Shown here: positions 3,946 to 50,878 of the stretch, piece by piece
Position numbering within the stretch: position 1 is the first letter of the stretch
Layout: each line of letters begins with the position of its first letter
From: Alphaproteobacteria bacterium CG1_02_46_17
GTDB taxonomy: Bacteria > Pseudomonadota > Alphaproteobacteria > Micavibrionales > Micavibrionaceae
NCBI GenBank assembly: GCA_001871905.1
Contig: MNUG01000040.1
Span: forward strand, 1-64,000
Direction of reading: 5' to 3'
Length of the DNA: 64,000 bases
Translations under genes and position numbers: made by a program
The notes under the pieces: model-generated
Told to the model about the DNA's origin: nothing
Seen by the model: the letters and a program-made list of their open reading frames with translations, nothing else
Database searches by the model: none

Positions 3946-4005
3946 GTTTTAATTTTCTAATTGATGTTTGAAAGAACATCTTGTTTTTGCTAATTTACAG
4001 GCAAG

Positions 4006-5679: not shown

Positions 5680-5694
5680 ACGACACAAAAGATC

Positions 5695-6261: not shown

Positions 6262-6268
6262 ATACGGA

Positions 6269-8040: not shown

Positions 8041-8052
8041 GAGAGTTCTCCT

Positions 8053-9297: not shown

Positions 9298-9384
9298 GGC
9301 AAAACGTCTAAATAATGTGGTTATCAAAGGTCATGTTTTAGGAACTGGCCTGTTTATACCTGACCTGTTTATAATAGAAAGGCC

Positions 9385-10455: not shown

Positions 10456-10456
10456 T

Positions 10457-11083: not shown

Positions 11084-11243
11084 TCCTCTCCCTCATATAC
11101 GCATTATTAATGTTTTTATCCCAAGGTATAGTTTGGGGCAGAGGATATTTGGGAGATGTTTTCCTAGAAATGTCCGTTTGCAAAACAGACTTAGACTAAA
11201 CAATTTTTTATTTATCCATCCATTATTCAGGCGCGTTATACGC

Positions 11244-14200: not shown

Positions 14201-14702
14201 CCTGATCGAAACAGATGTCAGCTTTCTTGGCCTTGACGATGTGGATCTTGATGAGGACGAAGATTCTTTTGCTATGGCGGTTCGAAAATTTGAGGAGCAA
14301 GAAAGCCAGAAAAAATCTATGGATCAAACCGAGCTTGATCCAAATTCCGTGGCCGCCTATGGACTGGATGAGGAAATGCTCAAATCCCTGACAACAGGTC
14401 TCCCGCCTGAAGTTATGCAGGACATTCTTGTCGGGTTTTATGAAAAAGCTGACGAGCTGGTTGCCGCAATCGGCATGGCCTATCTGGAAGGCAACGCCAA
14501 GGATCTTAAGGCCAGAGCCCATGAACTTAAAGGAATGGCAGGAAACTTCGGTTTCCGCACTGTAAGCTCCATGTGTTCCACGATTGAGGCAGCCGCCAAG
14601 GACGATCAACTGGCCGCCGCCAAAAGCGATGTGGAACATTTGGGCGAGACCTACGCCATGTCCAGAGGTCATTTATCCCAATGGCTTGCAGAAAAACAAT
14701 AA
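11244..14702 (+). CDS. 7TMR-DISM hybrid sensor histidine kinase with receiver and HPt
   Basis: A 1152-residue inner-membrane multistep phosphorelay kinase. A signal-anchor segment (ACLCSLFVFWVLIG) is followed by a periplasmic beta-rich domain resembling 7TMR-DISMED2 (about residues 90-260), seven membrane helices (about 265-480), a coiled coil, HisKA with SHEIRTPM (phospho-acceptor His543), an ATPase domain with N box (NLLNNAIKF) and G boxes (DSGIGIS, GTGLGL), a receiver (phospho-acceptor Asp843 in LMDIELPD), an acidic linker and a C-terminal HPt with AHELKGMAGNFG (His1093). An upstream in-frame ATG at 11046 overlaps purN; the ATG at 11244 just before the signal segment is preferred, though its ribosome site is poor. 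No response regulator lies nearby, so its output is elsewhere. The ligand is unknown. Confidence 0.88.
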   Translation: MYHHIYHHALTSSSICKSLRSKQRSLVACLCSLFVFWVLIGNCSPALSQIISTTQSNEDVHSSQFAQMGTPNAPRSYSSTKTVAAPSSVQYSGAILSDFTESLKLKNRFYVIEDPKQSISKMQVATIIRTGKLSEYIWTSDHYNMGYKGTSAWLVFPISSISDFTNWKLSFGTQFEGRYSTLKTFSIFNMATDKYMYQTDTLNHPSKIVPQTFRIEALSQNTTYIVAYIKSPPAILTIISPEIINPRTETPLQIWKEWIVTALSLAGFISLLAIFKATRNTSYVFLAIIWLLIFIQHQLVTTFLYVDIIENDMLIPLTWTFIPFLLLAALWTSPGARDDLPPALIIGAACLFMISSITGLILMHPAPSLSAFLLYMPLGLSCILITFSTWPFIIAGRRTELLCLATSSLFLGLMVLSIAVISLGFIADNSFNLMMGEIFLSLSILSSALFSSGRKESGTTLRNLIVKNDSYEDDRNSIESSPLKEAKELSEHKRLIQVLEKERQNMAEMQLQTARQTEEMRKSKEAADEANRAKSAFLAIVSHEIRTPMTGIMGMIRLLQDTHITKEQREYVSTIKDSGDAMLALLNDILDYEKIESGKMELEILNCDIRRLARSIHTLMSGHAASKNVDLVLELDPAVPTWIKCDPTRLRQVILNLLNNAIKFTGKGAVYLRLRNLTSDELSAQGIYQLYFAVQDSGIGISPEAQRKLFMPFSQANTSITRKYGGTGLGLAICKRLIETMGGGISISSKEGEGSTFFFTLNLPSGEEDADDQSGAAQQEISESLSQGFSKHLHILIVDDNGINQKVLAGFISKLGGGYKTASTGQEALSLLSQNHFDLILMDIELPDMNGMEVTQKIRGLNLKNKSSIPISALSGNVGDDDIKAYIASGMNDFAPKPITLEKLSELMHKADHKFPFQWNLDLISADTIAPAEEIQLPKQSDDLPSSSSLEDTYDAPENLTMSADEIDPFVTVEQIEPAPSTEDHSLIETDVSFLGLDDVDLDEDEDSFAMAVRKFEEQESQKKSMDQTELDPNSVAAYGLDEEMLKSLTTGLPPEVMQDILVGFYEKADELVAAIGMAYLEGNAKDLKARAHELKGMAGNFGFRTVSSMCSTIEAAAKDDQLAAAKSDVEHLGETYAMSRGHLSQWLAEKQ

Positions 14703-14766
14703 TTTACGATTTTTGATCTTGCGTTCCAGTTCTGAATTGTGTAGTTTCTGGCTCGCTTTAGAGGAT

Positions 14767-14841
14767 TGGGGCGTCGCCAAGTGGTAAGGCACCGGTTTTT
14801 GGTACCGGCATTCGTTGGTTCGAATCCAGCCGCCCCAGCCA
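14767..14841 (+). tRNA. tRNA-Gln (anticodon TTG)
   Basis: A complete cloverleaf: acceptor arm TGGGGCG/CGCCCCA, anticodon stem CCGGT/ACCGG with loop TTTTGGT placing TTG at positions 34-36, T-arm loop GGTTCGAATCC, discriminator G and encoded CCA. It lies 64 nt downstream of the hybrid kinase gene. Confidence 0.95.
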
Positions 14842-15149
14842 TCTAATCATCAGTTTTCCGTTTCATGAGAACAATATCCCTGTTAGCCCCGTAATTTGGA
14901 CGGTATTGGCGCATACGGGCATTACCAGCATAAAGTTTGAGTTCTTCGCAACTTCTTGCGAAGAACTACTTCACTAATCCCTGTAAAATCTCTGTTAAAC
15001 AGAGAATAAGAAGAGATAGAGAATATTCCACCGAAATCACGCTGCTGAACACGCCTATCTATAGCTGATCACCACACACACCGCGCATTTAATCTCACAT
15101 CTCTATACTTACACCACCACTCTACCTTGTCAGTTTACATCTGGTCCAT
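14842..15149. other. Gene-free interval with two perfect hairpins
   Basis: About 300 bp with no credible coding frame. It holds a perfect 12-bp inverted repeat with a 4-nt loop (AGTTCTTCGCAA/TTGCGAAGAACT, 14940-14967) and a second hairpin TCTCTGT-TAA-ACAGAGA near 14987-15003. Neither is followed by a convincing T-run on either strand, so ordinary terminators are doubtful. The DNA nearest the esterase gene is unstructured. Confidence 0.5.
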
Positions 15150-15893
15150 TCACTTTTTATGGTCAGGGCCTAACAACTCTTTAACAAGCGGCGCGATATT
15201 TTCAACCATAACGGCGACCCCCTTCTGGTTGGGATGCATCCCGTCCGTTTGATTCATTTCAGGTGACAGGGCGACTCCTTCCAGAAAGAATGGGTAGAGG
15301 CTCACATCATATTCTTTGGCTAGATTTGTATATATTTTATTGAAATTTCCACGGAAAAGTATGGAATATTGAGCTGGAGCTCGCATCCCTGCAAGAAGAG
15401 TTGGGATATTCTTCTGGCGGAGCTGTTCCAGAATACTGGCCAGATTTTTTTTTGTAGAGTCAACAGGAAGACCGCGTAACATATCATTCGCCCCCAAGGC
15501 CACAATGACGAGGTCAGGAGTTTGGTCTCCCTCCAAAGCCCACTCCAGACGGGATAACCCGCCCGCGGTTGTGTCACCCGAAACACCGGCATTATCAACC
15601 TGAACATCCAGTCCATCTTCTTGTAAGGCGATTTGCAATTGTTCCGGAAAGCCTTGGCCGCCTTCCAGCCCATATCCGGATGTCAGGCTATCCCCCAGAA
15701 CAACAACCCGTTTGCTGGCAGCATGGGCAGGGTTAATCTCCATAAGGAAGAAGGATATAAGGAGGGCCGCCATAAAAATGGTTCCCCACAGTATCCTTTC
15801 TGTTGATTTAAACCTAGTTTGATCTATGTCATGGATGTATATTTGCGCACGCGCCGCGCGAGTATAGACAGGTACAAAAACAGGCTGTTTCAT
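15150..15893 (-). CDS. GDSL/SGNH esterase, TesA-like (arylesterase / lysophospholipase)
   Basis: A 247-residue SGNH hydrolase of the TesA/arylesterase family acting on acyl esters or thioesters in the periplasm. Block I VLGDSLTSGYGL has the nucleophile Ser, block II the Gly in GVSGDTTAGG, block III GANDMLRG, and block V DGMHPNQKG the catalytic Asp-His. The first 60 residues hold a basic stretch and a hydrophobic segment (LWGTIFMAALLISFFLM) ending PAHA, read as an uncommonly long signal peptide. The ATG at 15893 has a strong AAGGAG seven bases upstream; the ATG at 15776 is the alternative and would leave a short signal peptide. It is divergent from the ABC genes, the same arrangement as E. coli tesA-ybbA. 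Confidence 0.85.
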   Translation of the reverse strand: MKQPVFVPVYTRAARAQIYIHDIDQTRFKSTERILWGTIFMAALLISFFLMEINPAHAASKRVVVLGDSLTSGYGLEGGQGFPEQLQIALQEDGLDVQVDNAGVSGDTTAGGLSRLEWALEGDQTPDLVIVALGANDMLRGLPVDSTKKNLASILEQLRQKNIPTLLAGMRAPAQYSILFRGNFNKIYTNLAKEYDVSLYPFFLEGVALSPEMNQTDGMHPNQKGVAVMVENIAPLVKELLGPDHKK

Positions 15894-16584
15894 GCAAAAT
15901 CTCCTTCAATTAGAATCTATATCAGTTTCCCTTACAAACAATGGGCAAAAAATTTCTATCCTTGACCGAATTAGCCTTGGCATCCCGCAAGGGAAGATGG
16001 TGGCGATTGTAGGCCCTTCTGGTTCAGGCAAAACCACCCTGTTGATGGCGTGCTCCGGATTGATCCCTGTATCGTCCGGACATATAGCTTTTGATGGTAC
16101 AAAACTTCCGCTCGGGGATGAGCAGGCCATGACCTCATGGCGCCAGAAAAATGCAGGGATCATCTTCCAGAATTTTCATCTTCTTCCATCGCAGACTGCC
16201 CTTGAAAATGTTGCGATATCTTTGGAATTGCGCGGTGATAAGGATGCTTTTGATAAGGCGCGGGAGACACTGCATCATCTAGGGTTGGGACACCGGCTGG
16301 ATCACCTTCCAGGAGCTTTATCTGGGGGTGAACAACAACGTGTGGCCTTAGGGCGTGCAATTGTAGGAACTCCACCGCTTCTGCTGGCAGATGAACCGAC
16401 AGGAAATCTGGATCAGGAAAATGGTCACCATGTTATGGAGCTTTTAGAAAATCAGGTCCGGCATCACGGAACAACACTTCTGCTTATTACGCATGATCCC
16501 GTATTGGCTGCGCGGTGCGATATGCAGGTTCATATTCTTGATGGAGGTATCAAAGATATTTCAGGGACAGGAAAAACAGTATGA
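15892..16584 (+). CDS. ABC transporter ATP-binding protein, YbbA-like
   Basis: A 230-residue ATPase subunit of the MacB/LolD/YbbA branch. Walker A GPSGSGKTT, Q-loop IIFQNFHLLP, signature LSGGEQQRV, Walker [13 protein letters not shown] and H-loop ITHD are all intact. It overlaps the permease gene by 4 nt. Its start codon overlaps the start codon of the divergent esterase gene; an AGG site lies seven bases before the ATG. YbbA/YbbP systems are thought to work on envelope substrates rather than import, but the substrate is not established. Confidence 0.88.
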   Translation: MQNLLQLESISVSLTNNGQKISILDRISLGIPQGKMVAIVGPSGSGKTTLLMACSGLIPVSSGHIAFDGTKLPLGDEQAMTSWRQKNAGIIFQNFHLLPSQTALENVAISLELRGDKDAFDKARETLHHLGLGHRLDHLPGALSGGEQQRVALGRAIVGTPPLLLADEPTGNLDQENGHHVMELLENQVRHHGTTLLLITHDPVLAARCDMQVHILDGGIKDISGTGKTV

Positions 16585-19109
16585 CCTTTGCCAATTCCCT
16601 TCTGGCTTTGAAATGGGCTCTGCGGGATATCCGGGGGGCTTGGTCGTCTTTCTCACTGGTTCTGGTGTGCCTTGTCATCGGCCTTGCCGCTATCACAACT
16701 GTTCATATTACTGCGGGTAGCGTCCTCGGAAGTATCCAGAAAAACAGCAGGACAATTCTTGGCGCTGACTGGATTGTCAGACAGATATATAGCCCCGTAG
16801 GAGAGAAAGAACGCGATTGGCTGAAGGATAGAGGTGCGGTTATATCAGAGACAGCAGAAATGCGCCCGATGTTGATTAACCCTGTAACAGGGGATTCCGC
16901 ACTGGTGGAATTGAAAGTCGTAGATGACCTTTATCCCTTGTATGGATCATTCACTCTGACCTCCGGGAACTCTTTTTCTGGCAGTACGGCAAACGGCATT
17001 ATTCTGGAACCATCATTGCGGGGACGGCTTAATCTCAATGAAACAGGGATGCTCCAATTAGGAACGCTGAAACTCCATGTTTCAGGCTGGATTGCCAATG
17101 AGCCGGATCGCGCAGGTTCCGGACGTTTTGGTCTGGCTCCACGCGTTATTATATCATGGAAAGATTTTCTGCGGTCTGGGCTTTCGACCCCCGAAAGCCT
17201 GATCAGTTATGATTTGCGTGTTAAATGGCCGGAAGGCGGAGAACCCCGCGCCGATGAGTTCAAGGCAGCCTTTCCCCAGTCCAGTTGGCGGCTTACGACC
17301 CATGATAATGCCTCGCCACAAATCCAGCGTTTTGTGAATAACACGCTCCAATTCCTGACATTGGTGGGGTTATCAGCCTTATTAATTGGCGGGATAGGCA
17401 TTGCAAACGGGTTAAAGGCCTATTTCGAAACCCGTCTGACATCGATTGCTATTTATAAAATGATTGGAACACCACAGCCCATCTTGCGAGGTGTTTACGG
17501 ATGGCAGATTGCCATCCTGACTTGCATTGGAACATGCATAGGACTTGTGATTGGCGCAGGATTGACATGGGTTGGTTTCAACCTTGTGCGCGATATGTTG
17601 CCATTTCCGGTCGATATTATTTATACCGTAGAGGCAATTGGCGTTCCTGCCATCTTCGGGATATTGACCATGTGCCTGTTCTCATTATGGCCATTTGGGC
17701 AGGCCGAACGGACCTCCCCTCTTGTTTTATTCCGGCACGGAGCGGTGGATGTCGGGCAACGCCCCTCTGCAGATATTCTGATAATACTGGCAGGAGTCGC
17801 GGTCGCACTCTCCGTCTTTATTTTTACGATGGCGACAGACCGACTATTTGCTCTGTCTTTTATCATGGGGGCGTTTATTTGCTTTCTGATATATGCAGGA
17901 ATCGGGCATCTTGTCCGTATTCTGGCTGCCCGTCATGCGAGTTCTGCATCTTTGATGATCCGTCTTGCGTTGACAAATCTGGGGGGGCCACGCAATGCAA
18001 CGGTTCTGACGCTTATATCAATCGGGATCGGACTAACTGTTCTGGCTTCCGTTACCTTGGTTGACAGAAATATGCGTGGCATATTAACTGAAAATATGCC
18101 GAGCGATGCTCCATCTTTTTTCCTTCTGGATATCCAACCCCACCAGAAAGATAATTTTATAAAACAATTAAACGAATGGCCCGATGCCCGTAACCTGATC
18201 ATGACGCCGAACCTTCGCGGACGAATAAAATCTGTCAACGGTATTCCGGCGGAACAAGCTTTGAAGGATAATCGGGAACGCTGGTTGTTACAAAATGACC
18301 GTGGGTTTACCTACTTATCCTTAGCAATTATGGCCAACCAACCGGCACATAGCAAAGTGACATCCGGCACATGGTGGCCTGTTGATTATAAGGGGCCGCC
18401 ACTGGTTTCTGTTGTCGATGATGTGGAAAGGGGGTTTGGTGTAAAGCCGGGGGACACTATCACAGTAACGATATTGGGGCGCGATATTACAGCCACGATT
18501 GCCAATGTTCGGGAGGTCAATTGGACAAGTTTTACAATTAATTTTGCGATTACATTCGCACCGGGGACATTGGAATCTGCACCGCATAACTGGTTGGCGA
18601 CTGTGATTGCACCGCCTGACTCCGAGGCTGATTTACAACGTGCCATCAGCAAGGAATTTCCGAATATTTCAATGGTGCGTGTGTCAGAAGCTGTCAAATC
18701 CATTCAGGATATTCTGGGGCAGATGGTCATGGCTGTGCGCATCATGGCTATTCTTGCCCTTGTCACCGGAATATTCGTATTGGCTGGGGCATTGACCGCA
18801 ACACGTTCCCAACGCGCTTATGATGCTGTTATTCTCAAGGTTATGGGGGCTCCACAATCCTTGTTACTCAAGGGGCTTTGTCTGGAGTTTGCATTGCTCG
18901 GAATTATTGCCGCCGGACTGGCCGGGGGACTGGGGCTGGCTATCAGCTGGGGAATTATGGGGCCATTGATGGATCTTGGCTGGACATTTTATCCGGCAAC
19001 TGCCGCGCTGATTGTTTCTGGTGGGTTTGCTGTGATATTTATTGCAGGCATTGCAATCCTGCATTCAATTCTAAAAAGTCCTGTTCGTGGATATCTTCAG
19101 GACGAATAG
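16581..19109 (+). CDS. ABC transporter permease, YbbP-like (FtsX fold)
   Basis: An 842-residue inner-membrane permease with two FtsX-type modules, as in YbbP: an N-terminal helix (about residues 22-45) followed by a large periplasmic domain, a helix cluster at about 250-390 and further helices at about 395-500, a second periplasmic domain to about 710, and three C-terminal helices. Length matches E. coli YbbP (about 804). It is translationally coupled to the ATPase through an ATGA overlap. It probably acts as a mechanotransmitter in envelope lipid or toxin handling together with the adjacent esterase; this is inference from the conserved neighbourhood. Confidence 0.85.
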   Translation: MTFANSLLALKWALRDIRGAWSSFSLVLVCLVIGLAAITTVHITAGSVLGSIQKNSRTILGADWIVRQIYSPVGEKERDWLKDRGAVISETAEMRPMLINPVTGDSALVELKVVDDLYPLYGSFTLTSGNSFSGSTANGIILEPSLRGRLNLNETGMLQLGTLKLHVSGWIANEPDRAGSGRFGLAPRVIISWKDFLRSGLSTPESLISYDLRVKWPEGGEPRADEFKAAFPQSSWRLTTHDNASPQIQRFVNNTLQFLTLVGLSALLIGGIGIANGLKAYFETRLTSIAIYKMIGTPQPILRGVYGWQIAILTCIGTCIGLVIGAGLTWVGFNLVRDMLPFPVDIIYTVEAIGVPAIFGILTMCLFSLWPFGQAERTSPLVLFRHGAVDVGQRPSADILIILAGVAVALSVFIFTMATDRLFALSFIMGAFICFLIYAGIGHLVRILAARHASSASLMIRLALTNLGGPRNATVLTLISIGIGLTVLASVTLVDRNMRGILTENMPSDAPSFFLLDIQPHQKDNFIKQLNEWPDARNLIMTPNLRGRIKSVNGIPAEQALKDNRERWLLQNDRGFTYLSLAIMANQPAHSKVTSGTWWPVDYKGPPLVSVVDDVERGFGVKPGDTITVTILGRDITATIANVREVNWTSFTINFAITFAPGTLESAPHNWLATVIAPPDSEADLQRAISKEFPNISMVRVSEAVKSIQDILGQMVMAVRIMAILALVTGIFVLAGALTATRSQRAYDAVILKVMGAPQSLLLKGLCLEFALLGIIAAGLAGGLGLAISWGIMGPLMDLGWTFYPATAALIVSGGFAVIFIAGIAILHSILKSPVRGYLQDE

Positions 19110-39700: not shown

Positions 39701-42700
39701 TCAACCAGCATTCAGGAGCGCCTTGCGAAGGCGCTCTTGCTTTTGCTCATGATAGGTCATGACGTCCACAAAACTGCTATCCAGTATGTGCGATAACGAA
39801 TTTTCTTCCTGCTGCATTTCCAGTCCATTTTCCCGAGAAACCGCATCCTGCTGATGATCTCCATCCGCCGTATTGGAAAAATTCTGCAATTTCTCAAGCA
39901 TCGTACGAATATTTGTATAGTGACTATTAAAGCCCACATGATCAAAATCTGATTCTTGCTGCTGCCTGACCAATTCATTTTGCCCTGTTACGTTCTTTAT
40001 ATCTTCCGCTTGTGAGCTCTCCTGATAATGATCCAGATTTTGTTCTCTGATACGGAAGGTCATTTGCTCGCGGATAATTTGGAAGGCTTTCTCCAACCCA
40101 TAGAATGCACCTTGTTGACCAATCTCGCCTCTTTCAACAGTATCCCTGATAATAGACCGCGTTACCTCTCTAACCACAGCGGATTCATTTCCATTATGGC
40201 TTGGTGAAGCATCAAAATGTGGATCAGAAGCATTGCCGACAAACGTATCCATCACGTCACCGATATAAATCCGGACTGTCTGGTCATAAATTCCGCCATT
40301 TCCATCATCAGTCCGGACCACTAGATCAATTTTCTGAATGGCCTCATAATCAATCGCGTCTGTGAGAACCAGATCAGTTCCGATAATCGAGAATTTATTG
40401 TCTGGATTTGTGACAATCGAATAAGTATGTGTATTTGCGGGGTCTTCATCAATGGTCGAAAAACTCCCGACAATTGTGTTCAGCGGCGCATTTTCTTCAA
40501 TATGGTTATTTGTTATGTCGATATGGGTCGGCACATCATTCATATCATTGACATTGATGGTGATGGTTTTGGTATCAGTCAATCCCCCGCTATCAATTAC
40601 TTCGACATCCAGTGTAAAACTAGAATTAAATTCGAAATTATTGGCCGCAACATTTGTCAGGGTGATCTCACCAGTTGAAGAATTCAGGGCAAAAACTGCG
40701 GCTCCTGTCCCACCTGTAATGCTATATGTCAGCACATCTCCGGCATCCACATCCGAACCAATCACAAATCCAACAGATTGATTCAAAGGTGAGTTCTCAT
40801 TTATTGCAAAATTTCCATTTGGGACGTTTGCGAAAACATCTACGCCTTCCCATTCAATCAAATAAGGCATATTGGTGCTGGCAGGAATATCATTCCATCT
40901 TCCATTTGTGTAAAGCTGGATAGCATCTTCATTCCCAGAGTTGTTTGGCTCTAACCCATTCCAATTGGTGTATAGACCATTTTGGGCACTTCCAGTACTA
41001 GTTCCCAACCAGAATAGATCTCCATTTTCCGGCCCGCCATCCCACCGCCATTCCCCTTCTACGGCTGTGTCAGATGCCCCGATATAAGTACTTGCAGAAA
41101 TCATGGATGTCAGGAATGCATTCTCTGCTGCGGAGGATATATTTGCCAAATGACCAGTTGTTCCGAACAGAGTTGCTGCATTTGCCGCAGCTTTTGCTCC
41201 GGCATAGTTCGTGTTTGATGTGGAGAGCTTGTAAAAATTTCCGGTGGATGGATCATAGCGCAAAGACGGATCGGACATTAGAACAATATTCACCTGGTCC
41301 AATGTCGGCGCTTCATTGACGTCGTTAATATTAATGGTCACATTTATAGTATTGGTCAAAGCTCCGAACCCGTTATCTATCCCGCGGATTGATAATGTAT
41401 AGCTGTTCAAAATCTCGTAATCCGGAATTTTTGCCAGTGTGACAACACCTGTCGAACTATTGATCGAGAACATATTGTTGGTATTCCCGCCTGTAATTGA
41501 ATATGTCACAGTGTTTGACTCCAGATCGGTTGAGGTCACTGTTCCAACGACTGTTCCAATGCTTGAATTCTCATCAACCGAGACCGTTCCAAACCCTGCC
41601 ACATTGGGCGCGGTGTTTTCAGGAATGTCCAACACATCAATGGTAATGGTTGTGCTGTCGCTTAATGACGGGGTTCCATTATCATTCACCTGAACATCCA
41701 GCGTATAGGATGATATTGTTTCATAATCCAGAGCAGAAGCATTAGAAACGGTTATTATTCCTGTCGTCGGATCAATGGTAAAAACACCCACCCCTGTACC
41801 GCCTGTAATACTATATGTCAGTACGGTTGCAGCATCCGGATCAGTTGCAGTGATAGTTCCTACAACATCACCATTAGAAGATTTCTCAGAGACTTGAAAA
41901 TTCCCTGGTGTACCTCCCGCCTTTACTTCACTGATTATAATATTATCAACACCCCACGCTTCATCTGCAACGGCCTGATTAAGGGTTGAACTGAATCCCA
42001 GTTTAACGGAAGCCGCCGCGCTTTGTATGGTCAACACGACATGGAATGTCTGGTCTGCATAACTACCATTATGTACAAAATTGGTCATAAATGGCGTTGT
42101 TTCCTGAATTGTCCATGAAACCGCGCCACTTGTGCCATCTGAAGGCGATGCATAAGTAGAAGGCGCAAAAGTTCCTAGCGTTACAGGAGTTCCATTGACA
42201 TAAACTATAAAATCCTCTGCATCCCAACTGTCAATCCGGTAAAAATCAAATGAAATTGTGGTGTAATCTTGCGTGCCGAACAAAGCATAGGTTTTATAAG
42301 TGTTCTCCAGTCCCGCGTCCATTGAGTGCTGCCCCAAATAATTGGTCAAAATAGACCCGCCATTGGTTGTGGTGTTGTCAGTCCAACCTGTTGCCCCACC
42401 CTCGAAATCTTCAATGGAAACTTGAGTCCATCCATCTATCACAGGGGTTTCGTTCAAATCATTAATATTGATTATAATGTTCTTTGAATTGGTCAGATTA
42501 CCAAATCCGTTATCCGTCCCTCTCACCGTTAATGTATAGCTGGAGATTGACTCAAAGTCTGGACTTCCAGCTAACGTAATCACTCCGGTTGTCGAGTTTA
42601 TTGAGAACATGCCTCCGGTATTTCCTGCAGTAATCGAATAGGTCACCGTATCAGACTGCGGATCAGTTGAAGTTACAGCTCCCAAAACTGTTCCAATGCT

Positions 42701-44716
42701 CGAATTTTCATCTACGGATACGGGGCCAAATCCGGTTACAGTTGGTGCCGTATTCTCGGGGATATCCAAAACATCAATCGTCACAGTTGTGCTGGCCGTC
42801 TTGACAGGTGTTCCATTATCACTGACCAGAATATCAAGTGTGTAGGACGGAGTTGTTTCGTAATCAAGTACCGAAGCGTTAGCTACAGTGATTTTACCGG
42901 TTGTCGAATTAATAGAGAAAATTCCTGCACCAGTTCCGCCAGTGATGCTATAACTCAGTGTATCTGCAACATCTGGATCGGTTGCTGTGATCGTCCCAAT
43001 GACCTCTCCATTCGTTGACTTTTCAGAAACCTGAAAATTTCCTGGTGTGCCACCAGAGGCAACCTCGCTAAGAATGATATTATCAATGCCCCATGCCTCA
43101 TCTGCAAAAGCCTGATTGAGGGTTGAACTAAATCCCAACTTTAATGAAGCGGCAGTTGATTGAACCGTTAGAACCACATGGAATGTCTGGTCATTCCACT
43201 TACTATGCGCAAAATCATAAGAAAAAGGTGTGGTTTCCTGTATTGTCCACGACACGGCTCCACTAGCACCATCTGATGGGGACGTATAACCGGTTGTAAA
43301 TGCATTGCTGAAAACAGCAACATCATCAACATAGATAATAAAGCTTTCGCTGTCCCAGCTATCGATTCGGTAAAAATCAAAAGAGATGGTCGTATAATCC
43401 TGTGTTCCTGATAGAGCATAGGTTTTATAAGTATTCTGCGCTGCTGCTTCCATCGAGTGACGCCCCAGATAATTGGTCAGGATCGCCCCGCCATTGGTTG
43501 TGGTATTATCACTCCATCCTGTGGCTCCCCCTTCAAAATCCTCGATGGAAACTTGTGTCCATCCATCTATAACTGGTGCGTTGTTCGATGGATTAATTGT
43601 AATTGAATATGTCCCTGCTACGGGGGTTGCATATCCATCACTCATAGTAAAAGAAAAGGCATCGGATGTTACGCTGGCCACATCACTGTAATAGACAATA
43701 TATCCGTTATTGATATCCCCTTGGGTAAAGGTATCGGATAAGGCCAGCGTTGTACTGGTATTGCTGTTATATAAATGCCCCTGATCGGTTACATCGGTAA
43801 TTGTATAGGTCAAATTGACATTACTGTTGTCTGCATCGGTTGATGCCAGATTTACAATTGATGCAGATGTCAACTCATCTAAAGTCAATCCGCCGTTGGT
43901 TGCAATGACTGGGTTAACATTCGGGATAGTTAGTCCCCATTTGGTGGCCAGATAGTTCTCGACATCGTGGGTCTGGTCAACATTGAGGGTCTGGTTATAG
44001 ACAATCATCTCGGCAATTTGTCCGTCGAGCCAGTCTCCACTGGTTGAATCATCCCCGATATAAATTCCGGTTGTGGTTGTTCGGCTGATGGTTGTTGTAA
44101 AAATCTGGCTCACCCCGTCAACGGCAATACCGGCGAATGTTCCGGCATGCCTGATCGCCATCAGATCATAATCTCCTGGCGTATAGGACCCTGTCGAATT
44201 GTAGAAAATCCCATTTACATAGTAACTATATTCATTCCCTCCCCCTTCATTGATAAACATCCCGTTGCGGGATGGGTTTTGCCCGAAATCATAGACAGTC
44301 TCCCTCCCACCAGAGGAATCTCGGGAAAAGACAATAAAAGTCGTATAATTGGAACCGGGCATGGAAGCGGTTGTATTGACCAAGCGGTCATTTATACCAT
44401 CAAATGAAATCGTGTTTAATCCATTCAATGTTGTGGCACCATAGGTTGGTTGTTGGGTACCACTGGATGTGACATCAAAATTGCTGATACTATGATCGGC
44501 CCAGACAGCAACTGTACCAGAGAACCCATCATTGTTTCCGCCGGTTCCGGTCGCCGCATTATCGCCATCCGCATCGATAATTGTAGAGGCATCGCTGGCA
44601 TCCAGCCACAAGACCTGACCTGCAAGAACAGGCAACGACGCATCGAGCATCAAGCGCCGTTCAAGCGCCAATCCTCCCAATTTCTTTTTACGCGGACGTA
44701 TCAAGCTGTCTCCCAT
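39701..44716 (-). CDS. Giant multidomain surface protein (LEPR-XLL-like, LamG, cadherin, C-type lectin)
   Basis: A 1671-residue protein expected at the cell surface or outside. The N-terminus is not a Sec signal peptide: basic residues (RPRKKK) then LALERRLMLDA (16-26), a variant of the LEPR-XLL motif of giant exported proteins. Next are a LamG/concanavalin-like domain (about 30-265), a CSPG/cadherin-like repeat (270-380), two tandem 377-residue units (382-758 and 759-1135) each with a jelly-roll-like module plus two cadherin-like repeats, a C-type-lectin-like domain (about 1150-1290) with EPN at 1256 and WND at 1274, and further cadherin-like repeats (DxDxxD, DYE motifs) to about 1500. The last 170 residues are Gln/Glu/His-rich helix. 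There are no RTX nonapeptides. It is last in the operon with outer membrane factor, adaptors and protease, so it is the likely cargo. Confidence 0.85.
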   Translation of the reverse strand: MGDSLIRPRKKKLGGLALERRLMLDASLPVLAGQVLWLDASDASTIIDADGDNAATGTGGNNDGFSGTVAVWADHSISNFDVTSSGTQQPTYGATTLNGLNTISFDGINDRLVNTTASMPGSNYTTFIVFSRDSSGGRETVYDFGQNPSRNGMFINEGGGNEYSYYVNGIFYNSTGSYTPGDYDLMAIRHAGTFAGIAVDGVSQIFTTTISRTTTTGIYIGDDSTSGDWLDGQIAEMIVYNQTLNVDQTHDVENYLATKWGLTIPNVNPVIATNGGLTLDELTSASIVNLASTDADNSNVNLTYTITDVTDQGHLYNSNTSTTLALSDTFTQGDINNGYIVYYSDVASVTSDAFSFTMSDGYATPVAGTYSITINPSNNAPVIDGWTQVSIEDFEGGATGWSDNTTTNGGAILTNYLGRHSMEAAAQNTYKTYALSGTQDYTTISFDFYRIDSWDSESFIIYVDDVAVFSNAFTTGYTSPSDGASGAVSWTIQETTPFSYDFAHSKWNDQTFHVVLTVQSTAASLKLGFSSTLNQAFADEAWGIDNIILSEVASGGTPGNFQVSEKSTNGEVIGTITATDPDVADTLSYSITGGTGAGIFSINSTTGKITVANASVLDYETTPSYTLDILVSDNGTPVKTASTTVTIDVLDIPENTAPTVTGFGPVSVDENSSIGTVLGAVTSTDPQSDTVTYSITAGNTGGMFSINSTTGVITLAGSPDFESISSYTLTVRGTDNGFGNLTNSKNIIININDLNETPVIDGWTQVSIEDFEGGATGWTDNTTTNGGSILTNYLGQHSMDAGLENTYKTYALFGTQDYTTISFDFYRIDSWDAEDFIVYVNGTPVTLGTFAPSTYASPSDGTSGAVSWTIQETTPFMTNFVHNGSYADQTFHVVLTIQSAAASVKLGFSSTLNQAVADEAWGVDNIIISEVKAGGTPGNFQVSEKSSNGDVVGTITATDPDAATVLTYSITGGTGVGVFTIDPTTGIITVSNASALDYETISSYTLDVQVNDNGTPSLSDSTTITIDVLDIPENTAPNVAGFGTVSVDENSSIGTVVGTVTSTDLESNTVTYSITGGNTNNMFSINSSTGVVTLAKIPDYEILNSYTLSIRGIDNGFGALTNTINVTININDVNEAPTLDQVNIVLMSDPSLRYDPSTGNFYKLSTSNTNYAGAKAAANAATLFGTTGHLANISSAAENAFLTSMISASTYIGASDTAVEGEWRWDGGPENGDLFWLGTSTGSAQNGLYTNWNGLEPNNSGNEDAIQLYTNGRWNDIPASTNMPYLIEWEGVDVFANVPNGNFAINENSPLNQSVGFVIGSDVDAGDVLTYSITGGTGAAVFALNSSTGEITLTNVAANNFEFNSSFTLDVEVIDSGGLTDTKTITINVNDMNDVPTHIDITNNHIEENAPLNTIVGSFSTIDEDPANTHTYSIVTNPDNKFSIIGTDLVLTDAIDYEAIQKIDLVVRTDDGNGGIYDQTVRIYIGDVMDTFVGNASDPHFDASPSHNGNESAVVREVTRSIIRDTVERGEIGQQGAFYGLEKAFQIIREQMTFRIREQNLDHYQESSQAEDIKNVTGQNELVRQQQESDFDHVGFNSHYTNIRTMLEKLQNFSNTADGDHQQDAVSRENGLEMQQEENSLSHILDSSFVDVMTYHEQKQERLRKALLNAG
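39716..39744 (+). terminator. Terminator hairpin inside the opposing gene's 3' end
   Basis: Perfect 9-bp stem GAGCGCCTT-GCG-AAGGCGCTC followed by TTGCTTTT. It is oriented to end the acyltransferase operon, yet lies within the last codons of the convergent giant gene. Confidence 0.55.
41311..43573 (-). repeat. Tandem 1131-bp duplication inside the giant gene
   Basis: Two direct in-frame copies of 1131 bp (377 codons). Each opens with VIDGWTQVSIEDFEGGATGW and holds the same module order: QDYTTISFDFYRIDSWD jelly-roll, GGTPGNFQVSEKS, and two cadherin-like repeats ending DVNEAP or DLNETP. Protein identity is high by eye; DNA third positions differ, so the duplication is not recent. Confidence 0.85.
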
Positions 44717-44789: not shown

Positions 44790-46979
44790 TTAATTCAAAT
44801 TTAGTTCGCGCCGCACCAATCCGGTTATTTGGTGCAGAAAAGATATCAAGGGTGATGTTTGCGTGGCGTCGATCAGTAAAATCCCTCGTTTTTTCATCAA
44901 ATGATCTGCTTGGGACTGACGATTTTTATTATCCGACAATCTTTCTTCACAAACGATCTTAAACACACTTTGTCTGGGGCTGACATTCGTCATATCAGGC
45001 TGTCCATTATTTGACGGCGCATTCACATTCAGATCATGAAATAATTCAGGAGATAAAATGGACGGGCTGGAGATCTCCTCGACCTGACGGACTTCCACCT
45101 GACTCGATGAGAATGGTTGACCATCCTTGATAAATTTTGCGCTTCCATTAATTGAGATACGATCACGATCTGTTTCAGGAACGTAGGTCACATAAATCAG
45201 GCTTTCCGGGTCAATAAGACGAAACAAAATATCATTAGTCTTGACAGTTCGACCGTCCTGAACTCCGGTCAACATATCCCGTATCTCGCCATCAAATGGA
45301 GCTGTCATCACCAGTTTTTGCAAGCGTTCGTCCATTGCTTCCAAGGATTGTAGGGTCAGAATAATTTGTTCCTCTAGAGAAGCATGTCCCTGCCGCAACG
45401 AAGAGGATGCTTTATTTTCATCCCGAGGGCTAGCTGTCGAGACAGACTCGCCACGTTTCAATGATTCGAGATAACCCAGTTTTGCTTGCATCAGATCTCG
45501 ATCCTGCTGCAATTTAGCCGATCCCAAAATCATCAACACATCACCTTTTTTGACGTGACCTCCATTTGCAACCAATATTTTTTTAACCTGTGCGACATCT
45601 GGTGCGTGTGCTTCCCAGTAGTTTTTATGATATTCGACAGCTGGGGCGCTGACGGTTCCATCCAATGGTAATACCAAAAACAATAAAATGACACCAAAGG
45701 TTCCCCACATAATTCTGGAGCGCCTTGATATAAATAACTCTCTTGATCTATCTTTCCAGACCTTGAGTTCCGAGAGAATCGGACGCAACAGGAAAACCCA
45801 GACCTCGACCAGAAACAAGATTGTTCCCAGTGGTTGGAAAAATAGCGCATAAACCAAAAGAGCTATCCCGCTAAACAAAAAGAACCGATACACCAATAGC
45901 AATGCACCAAACAGAATTAGAAATTTCTGTGTTGCTACGGGTAAATATTCCGGTGGCGGATCGTTCCATGCGAACAGAAATCGGCGTAATGCATAACGGG
46001 CAAAATTGCACGCACGCATTTGCAAGTTTTCAATACCAGTAAAATCAGAGAGTAAATAATATCCGTCAAAGCGCATTAATGGATTGAGATTAATCAGCAA
46101 AGATGACACCAGAGATACTGCCACCACATAAAATGAAACGATCTGCATCAAAGTTCCAGATGGAGACAGATGCCAGAACAACAGGAATATGGTGGCTAAC
46201 GCCAGTTCGGCCCGTATTCCGGCAAAACCGATGGCCATCCGGTCAAATCTGTTCTGCAGCCGCCAGACCCCTGTTGTTTCGGTATAAAGAACCGGATACA
46301 TTGCTATGACAGCAATCCCCATATGGGGCACGGGCACCTTGAATTTCGTAGCCGTGAAAGCATGAGCCCATTCATGGATAATCTTAATAAAGGCGAAGAC
46401 TATCCCGACCATCACAATTCCTGACAGTGATGGAATTTCTGCAAACTGGGAGAAAAATTCATCGGCGCGTTCAATGGTCATGATCACTAATATAAAAAGT
46501 GAAACCAGAACGACCCAGGTCATCCCTTTCGAAAACAGCGGCGACACGTAAGGATAGGATATATCTAGAAATTTTTGTGGCTTGAACAACGGCACTGTAA
46601 AGTACAGATAGTGATGCAACAATCTGTTGAGGGCTCCCTGCTCCTTTGGCTGGGAAATTAATTCATGCGCTGTTTCTTCCAATAAATGGTTTTTTTTCAG
46701 AAACTCCAGCAAATTTAATATATCACTTTGATCTATGTCCAAAGACGTGTTGGATGTAATGTCCTTGATCAATTCGTCTACATCTTCGTGGAGCGGGAAT
46801 CTCGACAGGCATTCACACTCAGCCCAACTCAGTTTGTAATAGGAATGGCTAACAGGATCATGCAACATGCCAGTTGGCTCACCACTTGCCGGATCAGCTG
46901 CACCAGAGAATATTTTTATACCGTAACGAAGACGGGGCAGTGACATTTGATTATTTGGAATATTCGAGGAATGCGTCAT
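44790..46979 (-). CDS. Membrane zinc metalloprotease (M50-like) fused to HlyD adaptor
   Basis: A 729-residue inner-membrane protein. Residues 30-110 look like a PqqD-like winged-helix peptide-recognition domain. The polytopic core has the zinc motif HEWAH (His202, Glu203, His206) inside a helix and the second site-2-protease motif NPLMRFDG (Asp305). From about residue 430 an HlyD-type part begins: a barrel-sandwich (lipoyl-like) strand pair, a helical hairpin and a beta-barrel (VMTAPFDGEIRD). It matches proteins named putative peptide zinc metalloprotease. AGGAGG is four bases before the ATG. It follows the GAF-HlyD gene by 8 nt. It probably processes or handles the giant protein during export; no ABC ATPase accompanies it. 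Confidence 0.85.
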   Translation of the reverse strand: MTHSSNIPNNQMSLPRLRYGIKIFSGAADPASGEPTGMLHDPVSHSYYKLSWAECECLSRFPLHEDVDELIKDITSNTSLDIDQSDILNLLEFLKKNHLLEETAHELISQPKEQGALNRLLHHYLYFTVPLFKPQKFLDISYPYVSPLFSKGMTWVVLVSLFILVIMTIERADEFFSQFAEIPSLSGIVMVGIVFAFIKIIHEWAHAFTATKFKVPVPHMGIAVIAMYPVLYTETTGVWRLQNRFDRMAIGFAGIRAELALATIFLLFWHLSPSGTLMQIVSFYVVAVSLVSSLLINLNPLMRFDGYYLLSDFTGIENLQMRACNFARYALRRFLFAWNDPPPEYLPVATQKFLILFGALLLVYRFFLFSGIALLVYALFFQPLGTILFLVEVWVFLLRPILSELKVWKDRSRELFISRRSRIMWGTFGVILLFLVLPLDGTVSAPAVEYHKNYWEAHAPDVAQVKKILVANGGHVKKGDVLMILGSAKLQQDRDLMQAKLGYLESLKRGESVSTASPRDENKASSSLRQGHASLEEQIILTLQSLEAMDERLQKLVMTAPFDGEIRDMLTGVQDGRTVKTNDILFRLIDPESLIYVTYVPETDRDRISINGSAKFIKDGQPFSSSQVEVRQVEEISSPSILSPELFHDLNVNAPSNNGQPDMTNVSPRQSVFKIVCEERLSDNKNRQSQADHLMKKRGILLIDATQTSPLISFLHQITGLVRRELNLN

Positions 46980-46987: not shown

Positions 46988-48286
46988 CTATATTCCAGTC
47001 AATTTCCGAACCATCAGGATCGGACGCCGCAAAATTTCATAGGACAAAACACTCCATCCGGCGCGGATTTTTGCTGTCCCTTTCCAGCCTATTTTAAGTG
47101 TTTCATCGTTATCCGTTATATCCGCGCTAATTTTATATGTATAAATCCCATCCTCATCCACGCTTGATTCATAACCAATCGAAATTATTTGCGCATCGAA
47201 GCTTTTTGATGGATAGACATTCAAAAAGAAATCGACCTCAGCCTTATCATCTATCGCGATCATCGCCTCGACCGGAACACGGATCAAGGCTTCATATTGC
47301 TTTGGGTCGGCAATTTTTATCAGGACATCTCCGGCACGAACCGGATGTCCTTCCAGAGATTCCTTTGCTGAAAAAATAGCAATTCCGTTGCGAGTTGATT
47401 TGATAGCGCTTCGCTCCAGCATCACTTGCGCATAGTCCGCCCTGATCTTTTTCTCTTCTATATCGGATTCCACTGCGCTCAATTCCGTCTTTTTCTCGGG
47501 CTGTGCCAAAGATTCACGACGTAATCTGGATAGTGAGGAATGCGCAACTTCCAATGTCTGGCCGGCAAGATCCGCGTCAGCTTTGAGTACTGTATTATCC
47601 AGCAATACCAATTTTTGACCTTGTTCGACTTCATCTCCGGGATGCACAAAAACATCCGATACCAATCCGTCAAATGGCGCTGTCAAATAATCGGCATCTT
47701 TGGCAACAATCTCGACTGGCGCAGTGACGCTTACTCTCACTGGAAAAAACAGGATGACCAATAGGGAGATCAAAAGAACTTTATTCCTTTTTGCATTTCC
47801 GCCCCATAAATGTTTGATCCGGCTGCCAATACCAGAAAGGCCACGTAAATCATGCAATGCGAGAAGTGGTGCATAAGACAATGCCAGTTCTTGCAACAGG
47901 CTTTGTTCCTCGCCCCTGAATTTCCGATCACTTTCAAGAATTAATCCACCGATGATGCCATCCTGTTGAGTCGAGAATGGTATGATGGTCAAAACGGTGT
48001 TCGGAGAAGACTCTTCGATGATCCTGATCTCGGGGGTGACCTGATTTCCCTTATAACACTTCAGATGTTCGAGCATACCCAAAGCATACGGACTTTTCGG
48101 ATCGAGAATGGCGTGGCCGGATATTTTCTCAAGTCCAACACCAAGAAAGGTTTTGTTCCAGAAAATAGCCTGCCGATATTCGATCAGTTTTTTGCTTTGA
48201 TTGACTACGACATGTAAAAACTCCTGCCGTGTTTTTGCATCCTGCGCTTGCCGCTGTAATGCCAATAATGTCAATAATGGGTTCAT
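46988..48286 (-). CDS. HlyD-family adaptor with N-terminal GAF-like domain
   Basis: A 432-residue inner-membrane adaptor. The first 150 residues form an alpha/beta domain resembling GAF (VLTIIPFSTQQDGIIGGLILESD), placed in the cytoplasm by the single membrane helix that follows (about 169-187, KVLLISLLVILFFPVRV). The periplasmic part has lipoyl-like halves around a short helical hairpin (LTAPFDGLVSDVFVHPGDEV; SAKESLEGHPVRAGDVLIKI) and a membrane-proximal barrel. GGAAG is seven bases before the ATG. The GAF-like part suggests signal- or ligand-gated export, an inference. Confidence 0.8.
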   Translation of the reverse strand: MNPLLTLLALQRQAQDAKTRQEFLHVVVNQSKKLIEYRQAIFWNKTFLGVGLEKISGHAILDPKSPYALGMLEHLKCYKGNQVTPEIRIIEESSPNTVLTIIPFSTQQDGIIGGLILESDRKFRGEEQSLLQELALSYAPLLALHDLRGLSGIGSRIKHLWGGNAKRNKVLLISLLVILFFPVRVSVTAPVEIVAKDADYLTAPFDGLVSDVFVHPGDEVEQGQKLVLLDNTVLKADADLAGQTLEVAHSSLSRLRRESLAQPEKKTELSAVESDIEEKKIRADYAQVMLERSAIKSTRNGIAIFSAKESLEGHPVRAGDVLIKIADPKQYEALIRVPVEAMIAIDDKAEVDFFLNVYPSKSFDAQIISIGYESSVDEDGIYTYKISADITDNDETLKIGWKGTAKIRAGWSVLSYEILRRPILMVRKLTGI

Positions 48287-48321: not shown

Positions 48322-49395
48322 TTAGCGCGATTCTTTATATGGAGCTTGTTGAGAAAGATATCCAATAACCCCGGCATCCTTGATAGCCCCTGCATCCAGC
48401 TCGACTTTGCCGCTCATGCCGGATAGCAAAGGGTCATGATAGGAATCCAATACGGCGCGCACTTGAATGGACCGGCTAACCGGATCGACTTCCCCGTATA
48501 TGCGGGTAACCTTTGCTGAATACGTACGTCCTGTTTCATTTAGAGAAATTGTTATCGGAGCACCAACATTGACCCAGCGCAACCATTTGGATGGCATCAG
48601 GAACTCAATGTGCAAGGGGTCATTGGATGCGACTTCCAACAGCACACGATCGGTACGGGTATATTCCCCTTCATTGGCCAGACGTTTGGTCACGCGTCCA
48701 TCAAAACCGGCCCGAATAGTACAATCTTCAAGACGGGCTTCATAAAGCTTTATCTTGGCGTCTGCGGCCTTGTCTTCACTTTCAATATTCAAACGATCTA
48801 CATCGGAAATAATATCAAGCTTGAACAGCTGATCTCCGGTTTTAACTTTGGTGTCTGTTAGATTCTTTTCAACGCCTGCCATCTCTGCTTCGGCTGCCAG
48901 ATCATCGCAGGCATAGCGCACCAGAATATCATTCTTTTTGAACAAGTCGCCGTTCTGCAATGGAATATCAGAAATTTTTCCGTCATGACTGCTCGAAATC
49001 ACTGTTTCTTTGGCAGGAACGAGAACTCCATCCACATCCAATGTCTTTTCTTCAATCGGCCACTCATCGGCTGGGGGATCTTTGTCTTCCTTGCCATTGG
49101 CTGGCTCAAGCCCGTTGGCTTCCTTTTGAGAAATTTCTTTTTGCCTGGCCTGCATCTCACTTAAAGTTAAACGCGCAGGTGGATTATCCGAGAAATCTTG
49201 TGCAAGATCTTCTTCCTGATTTTGGTCTATTTGTATCTGACGATGGTCTAGACTTGAGGTATTGAACGAATCTTCCTGAGATGGTTCACTCCCATGTGAA
49301 ATTATTACGATAACCGACCCTACCATCACCAACAGAGCGATCAAGCGTACGGCAACATGGAAACCCCAACTTTCAACTATATTTCTATTGGCCAT
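48322..49395 (-). CDS. HlyD/RND-type periplasmic adaptor
   Basis: A 357-residue inner-membrane-anchored adaptor. One helix (about residues 14-33) is followed by a Gln/Glu-rich linker, then lipoyl-like half (VISSSHDGKISDIPLQNGDLFKKND), hairpin, second half (IRAGFDGRVTKRLANEGEYTRTD) and barrel. GGAGG sits five bases before the ATG within the end of the outer membrane factor gene (11-nt overlap). Second gene of the operon and the simplest of its three HlyD-type adaptors. Confidence 0.85.
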   Translation of the reverse strand: MANRNIVESWGFHVAVRLIALLVMVGSVIVIISHGSEPSQEDSFNTSSLDHRQIQIDQNQEEDLAQDFSDNPPARLTLSEMQARQKEISQKEANGLEPANGKEDKDPPADEWPIEEKTLDVDGVLVPAKETVISSSHDGKISDIPLQNGDLFKKNDILVRYACDDLAAEAEMAGVEKNLTDTKVKTGDQLFKLDIISDVDRLNIESEDKAADAKIKLYEARLEDCTIRAGFDGRVTKRLANEGEYTRTDRVLLEVASNDPLHIEFLMPSKWLRWVNVGAPITISLNETGRTYSAKVTRIYGEVDPVSRSIQVRAVLDSYHDPLLSGMSGKVELDAGAIKDAGVIGYLSQQAPYKESR

Positions 49396-50878
49396 GTTGC
49401 CCTCCTAACTGGGGGGGCTGAACAGGCGATGCATTCATTTCTGCAACCATCAATGTCTGGTGATCAATATGACGCCCCAGAGAATTAATCAGGGCGGCAT
49501 AAGAATCCTGCATATTTGTGCAAGCTGTGGCACGGGCCATGGCTCCGATCTGGCTATCCAGCTTTGCCAGTACTGCTTCGCCACCTGCGGCAAATCCTGT
49601 TTTGGATTTTTGTGTTTTGGCATAAGCCCTGTTTGCAACATTCACGGCAGATCGCTCGGCATCACGACATAATATCAAGCTTTGCGCTAGACTTTGACGA
49701 CCCAGATGCACTTGCGCAAGTAATGCCGCTTCCAACGCCTGACGATGGGCATCGGCCTGTCTCTCCTTATCCTTGGCCGCTTGAAAGCGCATTGGCAAGG
49801 TCAGGACATTTAGGATGTTCTGCGTCAGGCCAAAAGAAAAATTCGACCATTGTTTTTCCTGCAGAAAGGAATTGCTGTCATTATTATAAGAAAAGAGCAA
49901 CTGTGCCCCGGGGAAGGTTTTAAAAATCTCTTCGCGCACTGATTTGATCGCAATATTTTTATTCAGAACTTCCTCACGAAGTTCTGGACGTGATTTCAAG
50001 GCGCTCCATTCCTGATTGGGTATTTTCCCTGCCAGCAAAGCCTGAATATCGGAACGCACAGACGGGGGCGCTTCCAGTTCCAGAGTGACGGATTGGGGGT
50101 AAGACAGCAGGGCCTTTAGTTCGATATCGGCGCTTGAGAGAATCTGATCCATCTCTCTCAATGTTTTTTGCCGATCACTCAGTTCCGATATTTTCTGGCT
50201 CCCCTCATCACTCGAGAGAAGATTTTTATCAATGGCTTTGGATAAATTGCCAATTTGCCTATTGCTTGATGCAATAATGTTCGCAGTCTGGGTTTTTGTC
50301 TGCTGATATTCCCAAGCACGCCAATAGGCCGCATAAACATCCCGTTCAATGTTCTGCACAACCTTTACATAGCGTTCGCGCGTAATGGCACTTTCATCCT
50401 GCAAGCGGTAGGTCTCGGCCAGCGCCAGACCAGCATCAAGTAGATTCCAACTGGCCTGCATTTCGCCAACCATACGCCGACGATCTGAAGATTGGGAAGG
50501 TTCCAAAGACTGTAATCCGCTTTGTATGGAACGGCTGGATGACGCCCCCAGATCAGACCTGATCATTGTAGTGCGAGAGGACTTGACCTGAGGCAAAACC
50601 TCCAGCTCTTTCATGGTCAGATTACCGTCTTTTACGACCATATCCAGCGCTGCAACACGAGCATCCAGATTCATTTCGACCGCCCGATCAAGTGCTTTTG
50701 TCAAATCAAGGCGAATCATCTGCCCTTCATACTGGGTCTGCTCCTGCCTGTCATTTTCCAATAATTGCTGATGGGCAGGGCTATCGAGGTCAACAACATC
50801 ACCTGTGCATCCCGTCAACAAAGACAGGAATCCCAAGCCCAGCAAGGCTTTGATAGGTATGGAGAGGAATAAACCCAT
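49385..50878 (-). CDS. TolC-like outer membrane factor lipoprotein
   Basis: A 497-residue outer-membrane channel of the TolC/OMF family. The signal peptide ends in lipobox LLTGC (Cys24), so it is lipid-anchored. Two long coiled-coil halves (about residues 60-270 and 290-480) carry the typical heptad helices and short beta segments (SFGLTQNILN; MQASWNLLDAGL). First gene of the export operon, with a sigma-70-like promoter candidate about 70 bp upstream; the start at 50878 has a weak ribosome site. It would provide the outer-membrane exit for the system. Confidence 0.87.
   Translation of the reverse strand: MGLFLSIPIKALLGLGFLSLLTGCTGDVVDLDSPAHQQLLENDRQEQTQYEGQMIRLDLTKALDRAVEMNLDARVAALDMVVKDGNLTMKELEVLPQVKSSRTTMIRSDLGASSSRSIQSGLQSLEPSQSSDRRRMVGEMQASWNLLDAGLALAETYRLQDESAITRERYVKVVQNIERDVYAAYWRAWEYQQTKTQTANIIASSNRQIGNLSKAIDKNLLSSDEGSQKISELSDRQKTLREMDQILSSADIELKALLSYPQSVTLELEAPPSVRSDIQALLAGKIPNQEWSALKSRPELREEVLNKNIAIKSVREEIFKTFPGAQLLFSYNNDSNSFLQEKQWSNFSFGLTQNILNVLTLPMRFQAAKDKERQADAHRQALEAALLAQVHLGRQSLAQSLILCRDAERSAVNVANRAYAKTQKSKTGFAAGGEAVLAKLDSQIGAMARATACTNMQDSYAALINSLGRHIDHQTLMVAEMNASPVQPPQLGGQHGQ

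Follow-up and report, generated by a model that had tools for sequence, protein, structure and literature searches.

What does a single protein that joins a leader-reading domain, a membrane protease and a periplasmic adaptor do beside the gene of a giant repeat protein, and is that neighbor its substrate? The question is raised by an open reading frame (ORF) with an ATG start at positions 44790..46979, minus strand, of a 64,000-nucleotide stretch of DNA from Alphaproteobacteria bacterium CG1_02_46_17 (contig MNUG01000040.1, positions 1 to 64,000, assembly GCA_001871905.1; hereafter the window). It encodes a 729-aa fusion of a PqqD-type RRE domain, a site-2 protease of the M50 type and a HlyD/MacA-type adaptor. 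Our analysis indicates that the fusion probably acts as both receptor and leader peptidase in a TolC-dependent route that has no dedicated ABC exporter and takes giant repeat proteins to the surface of the cell. Computation gave three folds in one chain, intact catalytic motifs, a conserved four-gene cassette and a signal that closely accompanies the machine from genome to genome. Bacterial open frames of great length, reaching 15,434 codons, begin with an LEPR-type signal, and a literature search found no route assigned to them. If the reading is correct, this orphan signal gains a receptor and a machine, and leader reading in the style of ribosomally synthesized and post-translationally modified peptides (RiPPs) has been reused for giant proteins.

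Results

A sequence-only reading of this DNA had placed a PqqD-like domain, a site-2 protease core and a HlyD adaptor in one ORF, and all three folds were borne out by models. The N-terminal domain (residues 13-106, 46662..46943, minus strand) was assigned from a model and fold search; the model, covering the 106 residues 13-118 with a 64-sequence alignment and a pLDDT of 89.4, had the RRE/PqqD winged-helix fold, and thus the absence of such a fold, which had been named in advance as the refuting outcome, did not occur. Its best solved matches were lasso-peptide B1 proteins with bound leader (5v1u at Foldseek E 1.7e-4; VIA Z of 10.6 for 6jx3, 10.4 for 5v1u and 10.2 for 5v1v), followed by the heterocyclase 4v1v (VIA Z 8.1), the sactipeptide enzyme 5wgg (7.5), TruD 4bs9 (7.1) and MccB (6.8), and just the top three stand clear because MINA53, a non-RiPP protein (Z 7.8), ranks among the rest. 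By sequence alone the domain is barely recognizable, with PqqD_rel_WgkC reaching E 0.022 in the window protein. The Pfam search for PqqD gave no match to the window domain and found PF05402 in 4 of 64 family members at a best E of 0.0057, with unrelated families scoring as well or higher in single members or pairs of the family, and it was this failure that made a structure model necessary.

The full-length model (57 sequences, pLDDT 89.9, pTM 0.77) supplied the other two parts. Together with helix prediction it placed seven membrane helices in the protease core (residues 151-436, 45672..46529, minus strand), of which residues 183-316 resemble the site-2 protease RseP (7w6z, Z 10.3, root-mean-square deviation 3.3, 132 residues aligned). 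RseP stood at rank 48 of the VIA list, and no site-2 protease appeared in the Foldseek top 50 for this model, where adaptors occupy the places. The adaptor part (residues 437-712, 44844..45671, minus strand) matched HlyD_3 with E 2.7e-7, and residues 439-706 of the model resemble MacA-type adaptors (9qgy_G, Z 16.6, root-mean-square deviation 6.5). Since seven hydrophobic helices are predicted, the RRE domain would lie in the cytoplasm and the adaptor part in the periplasm. Among curated families the daptide intramembrane metalloprotease NF041824 matched residues 43-393 with E 6.1e-35, at 121.1 bits against a cut-off of 300, and Peptidase_M50 (PF02163) reached 23.0 bits, below its cut-off of 27.2.

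Relatives were collected by a scan of a species-genome collection, which gave at least 590 pattern matches and at least 570 confirmed relatives; the 81 loci compared here are the best 80 of the latter plus one from viral contigs (L108). Cassettes and proteins related to this fusion gene are called window-type, as opposed to a sister M50-adaptor type described below. Both motifs that had been read as intact were confirmed, namely HEWAH at residues 202-206 (46362..46376, minus strand) and NPLMRFDG, the second zinc-site motif, at residues 299-306 (46062..46085, minus strand). In an alignment of 80 fusion proteins, which leaves out two truncated loci of the 81, H202, E203 and H206 of the HExxH zinc motif were identical in 80/80, as was D305, although the NPLMRFDG-type motif had partly served to collect the loci. 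With HExxH also kept in 7/7 sister proteins examined, protease catalysis appears from these alignments to be under selection.

The presumed substrate is encoded next to the fusion on the same strand as a giant protein of 1671 aa (39701..44716, minus strand), in which a domain search identified six cadherin stretches and a C-type lectin domain; the scanned giants of other loci likewise carry extracellular-type domains. After a basic stretch, its residues 18-27 (44636..44665, minus strand) form the LEPR-type signal LERRLMLDAS, which the curated LEPR-XLL model NF012209 scores at 14.7 bits, under its cut-off of 17. The window-type consensus at the giants' N-termini is LE(P/K/S/Q)RxMFD(G/A)A. Of the 1314 ORFs with 200 aa or more, 41, distributed over 38 loci, matched a strict pattern, L[EQ]xRx[LMF][LMFY][DS], somewhere in their first 250 residues. 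Among the 43 loci without it, the sequence available ends within the large ORF and cuts off its start in 17, there is no large ORF in 20, and the start is in view in six, five of which carry LE(P/Q/S)RI(A/V)FD(A/G)A; the sixth (L108) has no such variant, and its large ORF is oriented opposite to the cassette. The motif widened to admit these variants occurred in 47 ORFs in 43/81 loci, none of them a cassette gene and none shorter than 360 aa, compared with 1.3 matches on average, and never more than 5, when the sequences were shuffled 50 times. For 33 of the 37 loci without a judgeable start, a signal was found elsewhere in the genome (E up to 4.1e-4). L, E, R and D were constant in 39 non-redundant signals, of which the pattern itself forced L and R and limited the others to E/Q and D/S. 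Hydrophobic C-terminal anchors were not found, with 0 of 43 giants reaching a hydropathy of 1.8.

Several further features of the giants and signals were observed. The giant C-termini of the Nitrospira-type loci L045, L068, L052 and L084 share a sub-threshold hydrophobic stretch (e.g. GYVLWLLRSGVLLTALL), which could sit in a membrane. DUF4347 occurs soon after the LEPR signal in the giants at L095:2-5746 (minus strand), L090:103-6984 and L058:357-6431, and the domain scan gave no match to it in the window giant. LEPR-XLL matches were located in open frames of 15,434, 13,848 and 13,628 codons (G286:C1:496108-496158, G639:C1:429854-429919 and G398:C7:325859-325924, respectively), and at G028:C1:963270-963335 a second LEPR-type signal lies far from that genome's cassette in a 213-codon open frame.

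The leader had been proposed to be the LEPR-like start of the giant, and this claim received strong indirect support from the distribution of the signal, which tracks the fusion's orthologue across genomes. Two samples were used, 240 genomes of the class and 397 of the phylum. The curated LEPR-XLL model was tried on the class sample and matched 4/240 genomes at E<=0.01, three of them without an M50-adaptor (G056, G182, G201); G182 has adaptor-region matches only, the matches of G182 and G201 look unlike the others, and that of G056 was not found by pattern. In view of this outcome a signal model of our own, A4, was built from 40 rows taken from giants beside the cassette, the window giant included. 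An M50 match at E<1e-140 was graded as an orthologue, two candidates being scored per phylum genome. At E<=1e-3 the signal was present in 64/397 phylum genomes, covering 27 family labels and all falling within the 69 orthologue genomes, with 328 genomes having neither; at E<=0.01, 66 genomes had both, three the orthologue only and 326 neither. In the class, the signal was found at E<=1e-3 in 8/11 orthologue genomes versus 0/229 others, and at E<=0.05 in 9/11. Nine genomes (G289, G295, G299, G308, G320, G341, G345, G355, G367) have four to six signal matches, mostly on separate contigs, and some of the matches in such multi-signal genomes fall in short open frames.

A second machine allowed the pairing to be examined from another side. 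Among the 397 phylum genomes, 18 had a weaker M50 match only, which reached at least 196 bits in 15, and none of the 18 carried the A4 signal. NF012209 at E<=0.02 matched 15/15 of these sister genomes, 0/3 of the weaker-match rest and 0/27 genomes without either M50 type; G056, G182 and G201, which have no such M50 and were added because they had been positive earlier, were again positive. The same model also gave weak matches over its cut-off in 8/13 window-type-only genomes, and it hit 7/8 genomes with both machines. Where window-type signals have D (LEPRxMFD(G/A)A), 13 of 14 sister signals read, from the 15 genomes, have S and one has A (LEPRxLLSAD), whereas D was kept in 7/7 window-type signals read alongside them; six signals from genomes with both machines had S in four, N in one and D in one. 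Thus two related machines pair with two flavors of one signal, a pattern that would be difficult to account for if the machine did not read it.

Eight sister loci (L200-L207) were compared by BLAST with the window proteins, giving the second adaptor in 5/8 and the third in 4/8, with the choice of ORFs being poor in GC-rich loci. The OEP channel was confirmed in the one sister locus scanned for it (L207). Four proteins of about 660 aa from sister loci are SecA-like (PF07517, E 6.5e-68 to 4.2e-100), and an extra SecA gene was present in 6/9 sister genomes, 0/21 window-type genomes and 0/14 others. The sister large ORFs start with LEPRxLLSAD. The sister systems therefore resemble the window type in their M50-adaptor with HExxH, their adaptors, OEP channel and LEPR-type large-ORF starts, and differ in the SecA-like ATPase, the LLSAD flavor and, in the one second adaptor scanned (L203), a GAF domain. 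An example cluster is L203:6311-12333.

In the window the fusion is followed on the same strand, in coordinate order, by the rest of the cassette. The second adaptor (46988..48286, minus strand) was identified by domain search and BLAST of relatives and has an additional N-terminal domain, some 160 aa long, for which Pfam names no family. A GAF domain had been suspected there by eye in the window type and was rejected, Pfam being negative in the window protein and three relatives; the counterpart in sister locus L203 does match GAF (E 3.5e-6). The third adaptor is of the RND_mfp type (48322..49395, minus strand; TIGR01730 113.9 bits, cut-off 94.9), and the last gene encodes a TolC/OEP-type outer-membrane channel (49385..50878, minus strand; PF02321 E 1.5e-8). 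Relatives of the fusion were present in 81 of the 81 loci, of the second adaptor in 79, of the third in 69 and of TolC in 64, counting contig ends as misses, and the four-gene set TolC-adaptor-adaptor-fusion was complete in 63/81. The fusion is thus one of four linked, widespread genes, which goes beyond what had been read from the sequence, as does the existence of RRE-site-2 protease fusions in RiPP biosynthesis (daptide MpaP).

Other neighboring ORFs, when clustered, gave a response-regulator-like family in 11 loci and ABC ATP-binding proteins in nine. These ABC proteins vary in kind and sit either across gaps of 60 to about 7,000 bases or within an unrelated gene set (L030), and the one scanned is a TOBE-domain import type; being few and mixed in kind and placement, they do not make a motor a fixed partner of the cassette. 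Family scans of the window proteins found no ABC exporter in the cassette, and no RND, MFS or ABC pump was found in it or as a fixed partner across the 81 loci. A viral origin was considered and set aside; viral contigs gave 16 pattern matches, of which one was a relative (L108), and PHROGs gave one weak match, to the adaptor part.

Discussion

Patterns detected at this locus and across its relatives suggest the following course of events. The cytoplasmic RRE domain would bind the giant's N-terminal LE(P/K/S/Q)RxMFD(G/A)A and present it to the site-2 protease, which would cut in or just after the signal; the adaptor part of the fusion, the two further adaptors and the TolC-type channel would then form the conduit through which the giant leaves, presumably N-terminus first. 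Recognition of LEPR by the RRE and cleavage by the protease are expected by analogy with the daptide protease, and the presence of an adaptor part, two adaptors and TolC suggests that the product is passed outward. The available portion of PMC10036551 states that daptide systems have an RRE joined to an intramembrane site-2 protease, and that this RRE-dependent peptidase removes the leader. Daptide MpaP/DapP (NF041824) shares with the window fusion the RRE placed N-terminal to a site-2 protease, and differs in having a peptide substrate, where the window would have a giant one, with no adaptor part or TolC partner mentioned in that same portion. The daptide leader positions that were mutated there, E-L-D-P-M-E-x-P, include an L-acid-P that recalls the LEP with which the LEPR signal starts; we offer the likeness only as a lead, since the mutants were assayed with MpaB/MpaC, not MpaP, and the change of D had no effect. 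YydH/LiaK epipeptide metalloprotease (NF058609) is another M50-type protease of RiPP maturation and matches residues 157-322 weakly, at 22.6 bits versus a cut-off of 225.

Several observations weigh against this mechanism. The signal is not like a membrane helix (best 19-residue hydropathy 0.55-1.47 in 41 signals), unlike a classical intramembrane substrate. An energy source for transport was not found, the cassette being without an ATPase and the window genome having one SecA gene. The pairing is imperfect: five of the 69 orthologue genomes lack the signal at E<=1e-3 (G070, G286, G326, G348, G479), two genomes with the signal but no orthologue (G486, G509) appear at E<=0.01, 8/229 class genomes without the orthologue match A4 at E<=0.05 (E 0.022-0.048), and four of the 37 genomes without a signal at the locus have none elsewhere. 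The Fisher values of 1.5e-68 and 6.8e-13 ignore shared ancestry, and A4 is tuned to the pairing of signal and cassette because it was trained on giants beside the cassette. Finally, the window genome has a type 1 exporter of the LssB type elsewhere.

This last point leads to the principal alternative, in which giants would be retained in the manner of LapA: an ABC exporter encoded elsewhere would export the giant, a complex of RRE, adaptor and TolC would grip its LEPR end, and the protease cut would release it from the surface. The LssB-type exporter of the window genome lies on another contig and scores 875 bits, and such an exporter is over the cut-off in 13 of 21 cassette genomes; in a search confined to the LssB type, the remaining eight have no exporter that passes it, and G293 and G629 reach just 294 and 329 bits. 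A Vibrio giant of about 8000 aa with LEPR-XLL at its N-terminus and RTX and serralysin domains at its C-terminus, mentioned in PMC10868602, would fit retention of this kind, as would the RTX repeats in two of three scanned sister-system large ORFs. In contrast, GGxGxD is absent from the visible part of 37/43 window-type large ORFs whose C-terminus is in view and occurs once in each of the other six, a domain scan found no RTX family on the window giant, and the cassette carries its own TolC and three adaptors. We regard retention as unlikely, while giving it more weight than the other alternatives.

It could also be that the fusion processes a small ribosomal peptide and that the neighboring giant is a bystander, given that the RRE and the site-2 protease are both RiPP parts and that the daptide protease is the best NCBIfam match; yet that match lies far below the family cut-off, no RiPP-modifying enzyme was found among the eight window proteins scanned (small ORFs not having been examined), and signal and machine occur together from genome to genome, making this explanation highly improbable. 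An ordinary efflux operon, with the protease cutting a membrane regulator and the adaptors serving a drug or metabolite pump, is suggested by the likeness to RseP, which is a signaling protease, and by the fact that adaptors and TolC are common to efflux pumps. It would need the pump that is missing from the cassette and from its fixed partners and would not lead one to expect co-occurrence with signals of giant proteins, and we consider it very doubtful. Equally implausible is a machine that exports the giant with the protease core as a docking or membrane part only and the signal left uncut: the signal is indeed unlike a membrane segment and no cut site is known, but HExxH is kept in every window-type protein aligned and every sister protein examined, as if catalysis were under selection.

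Under the export reading, how should the system be classified? Like type 1 secretion (ABC exporter-HlyD-TolC, as for LapA and RTX adhesins), the window has adaptors and a TolC-type channel beside a giant repeat protein; unlike it, the cassette is without an ABC exporter, the conserved signal is N-terminal and RTX motifs are largely absent. Adaptor and TolC channel were thus found, and an exporter in the system and an RTX substrate were not; because these features fail, as does the daptide family cut-off, the system was filed under neither type 1 secretion nor daptide biosynthesis. The window-type signal is a flavor of LEPR-XLL (NF012209, LEPR-8K), whose model fits the sister LEPRxLLSAD better, and no machine tied to the LEPR-XLL domain was found in the open-access literature. 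The RRE-site-2 protease fusion and the folds of the parts are already known, except for the unnamed N-terminal domain of the second adaptor. What would be categorically new is the whole system and not its parts, with the reservation that a description may exist elsewhere than in the open-access literature, where a search found none and from which most preprints and most subscription journals are missing. A "type XII secretion system", a label which we take to concern a metalloprotease with adaptors, may or may not be the same thing, and nothing was found under that name.

On balance we lean, by a narrow degree, toward a separate class of secretion system in which the RRE reads an N-terminal LEPR signal, the fused site-2 protease cuts and proteins of about 1,000-10,000 residues leave through a conduit of three adaptors and TolC. 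Two sister machines would then use two codes, the window type, which has no dedicated motor, reading D(G/A)A and the sister type, often equipped with its own SecA-like ATPase, reading SAD. That signal and machine keep company in many bacterial families suggests a secretion route that has been overlooked. Cassette relatives were found in culturable Azospirillum, Marinomonas and Thalassospira, and if the proposal is true, export of giants is directly testable in these hosts.

Some minor observations concern the surroundings of the cassette in other genomes. Phage-tail-collar proteins adjoin it at L069:7692-9367 (PF07484 in the one scanned), and a family resembling them occurs in 5/81 loci; on a Kosakonia plasmid (L210:17131-19238) three genes annotated as tail fiber protein come after the cassette. 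The fusion gene was present in 24 of 5,426 E. coli genomes, with 21 of 25 places being on plasmids. On one E. coli plasmid (L209, NZ_CP060066.1, IncHI1B, 1695-19073) the cassette and a 3,668-aa giant starting ALESRQLFDGAA adjoin IS elements. Annotation in the plasmid records splits the pieces, mostly as "HlyD family efflux transporter periplasmic adaptor subunit" and once as "site-2 protease family protein".

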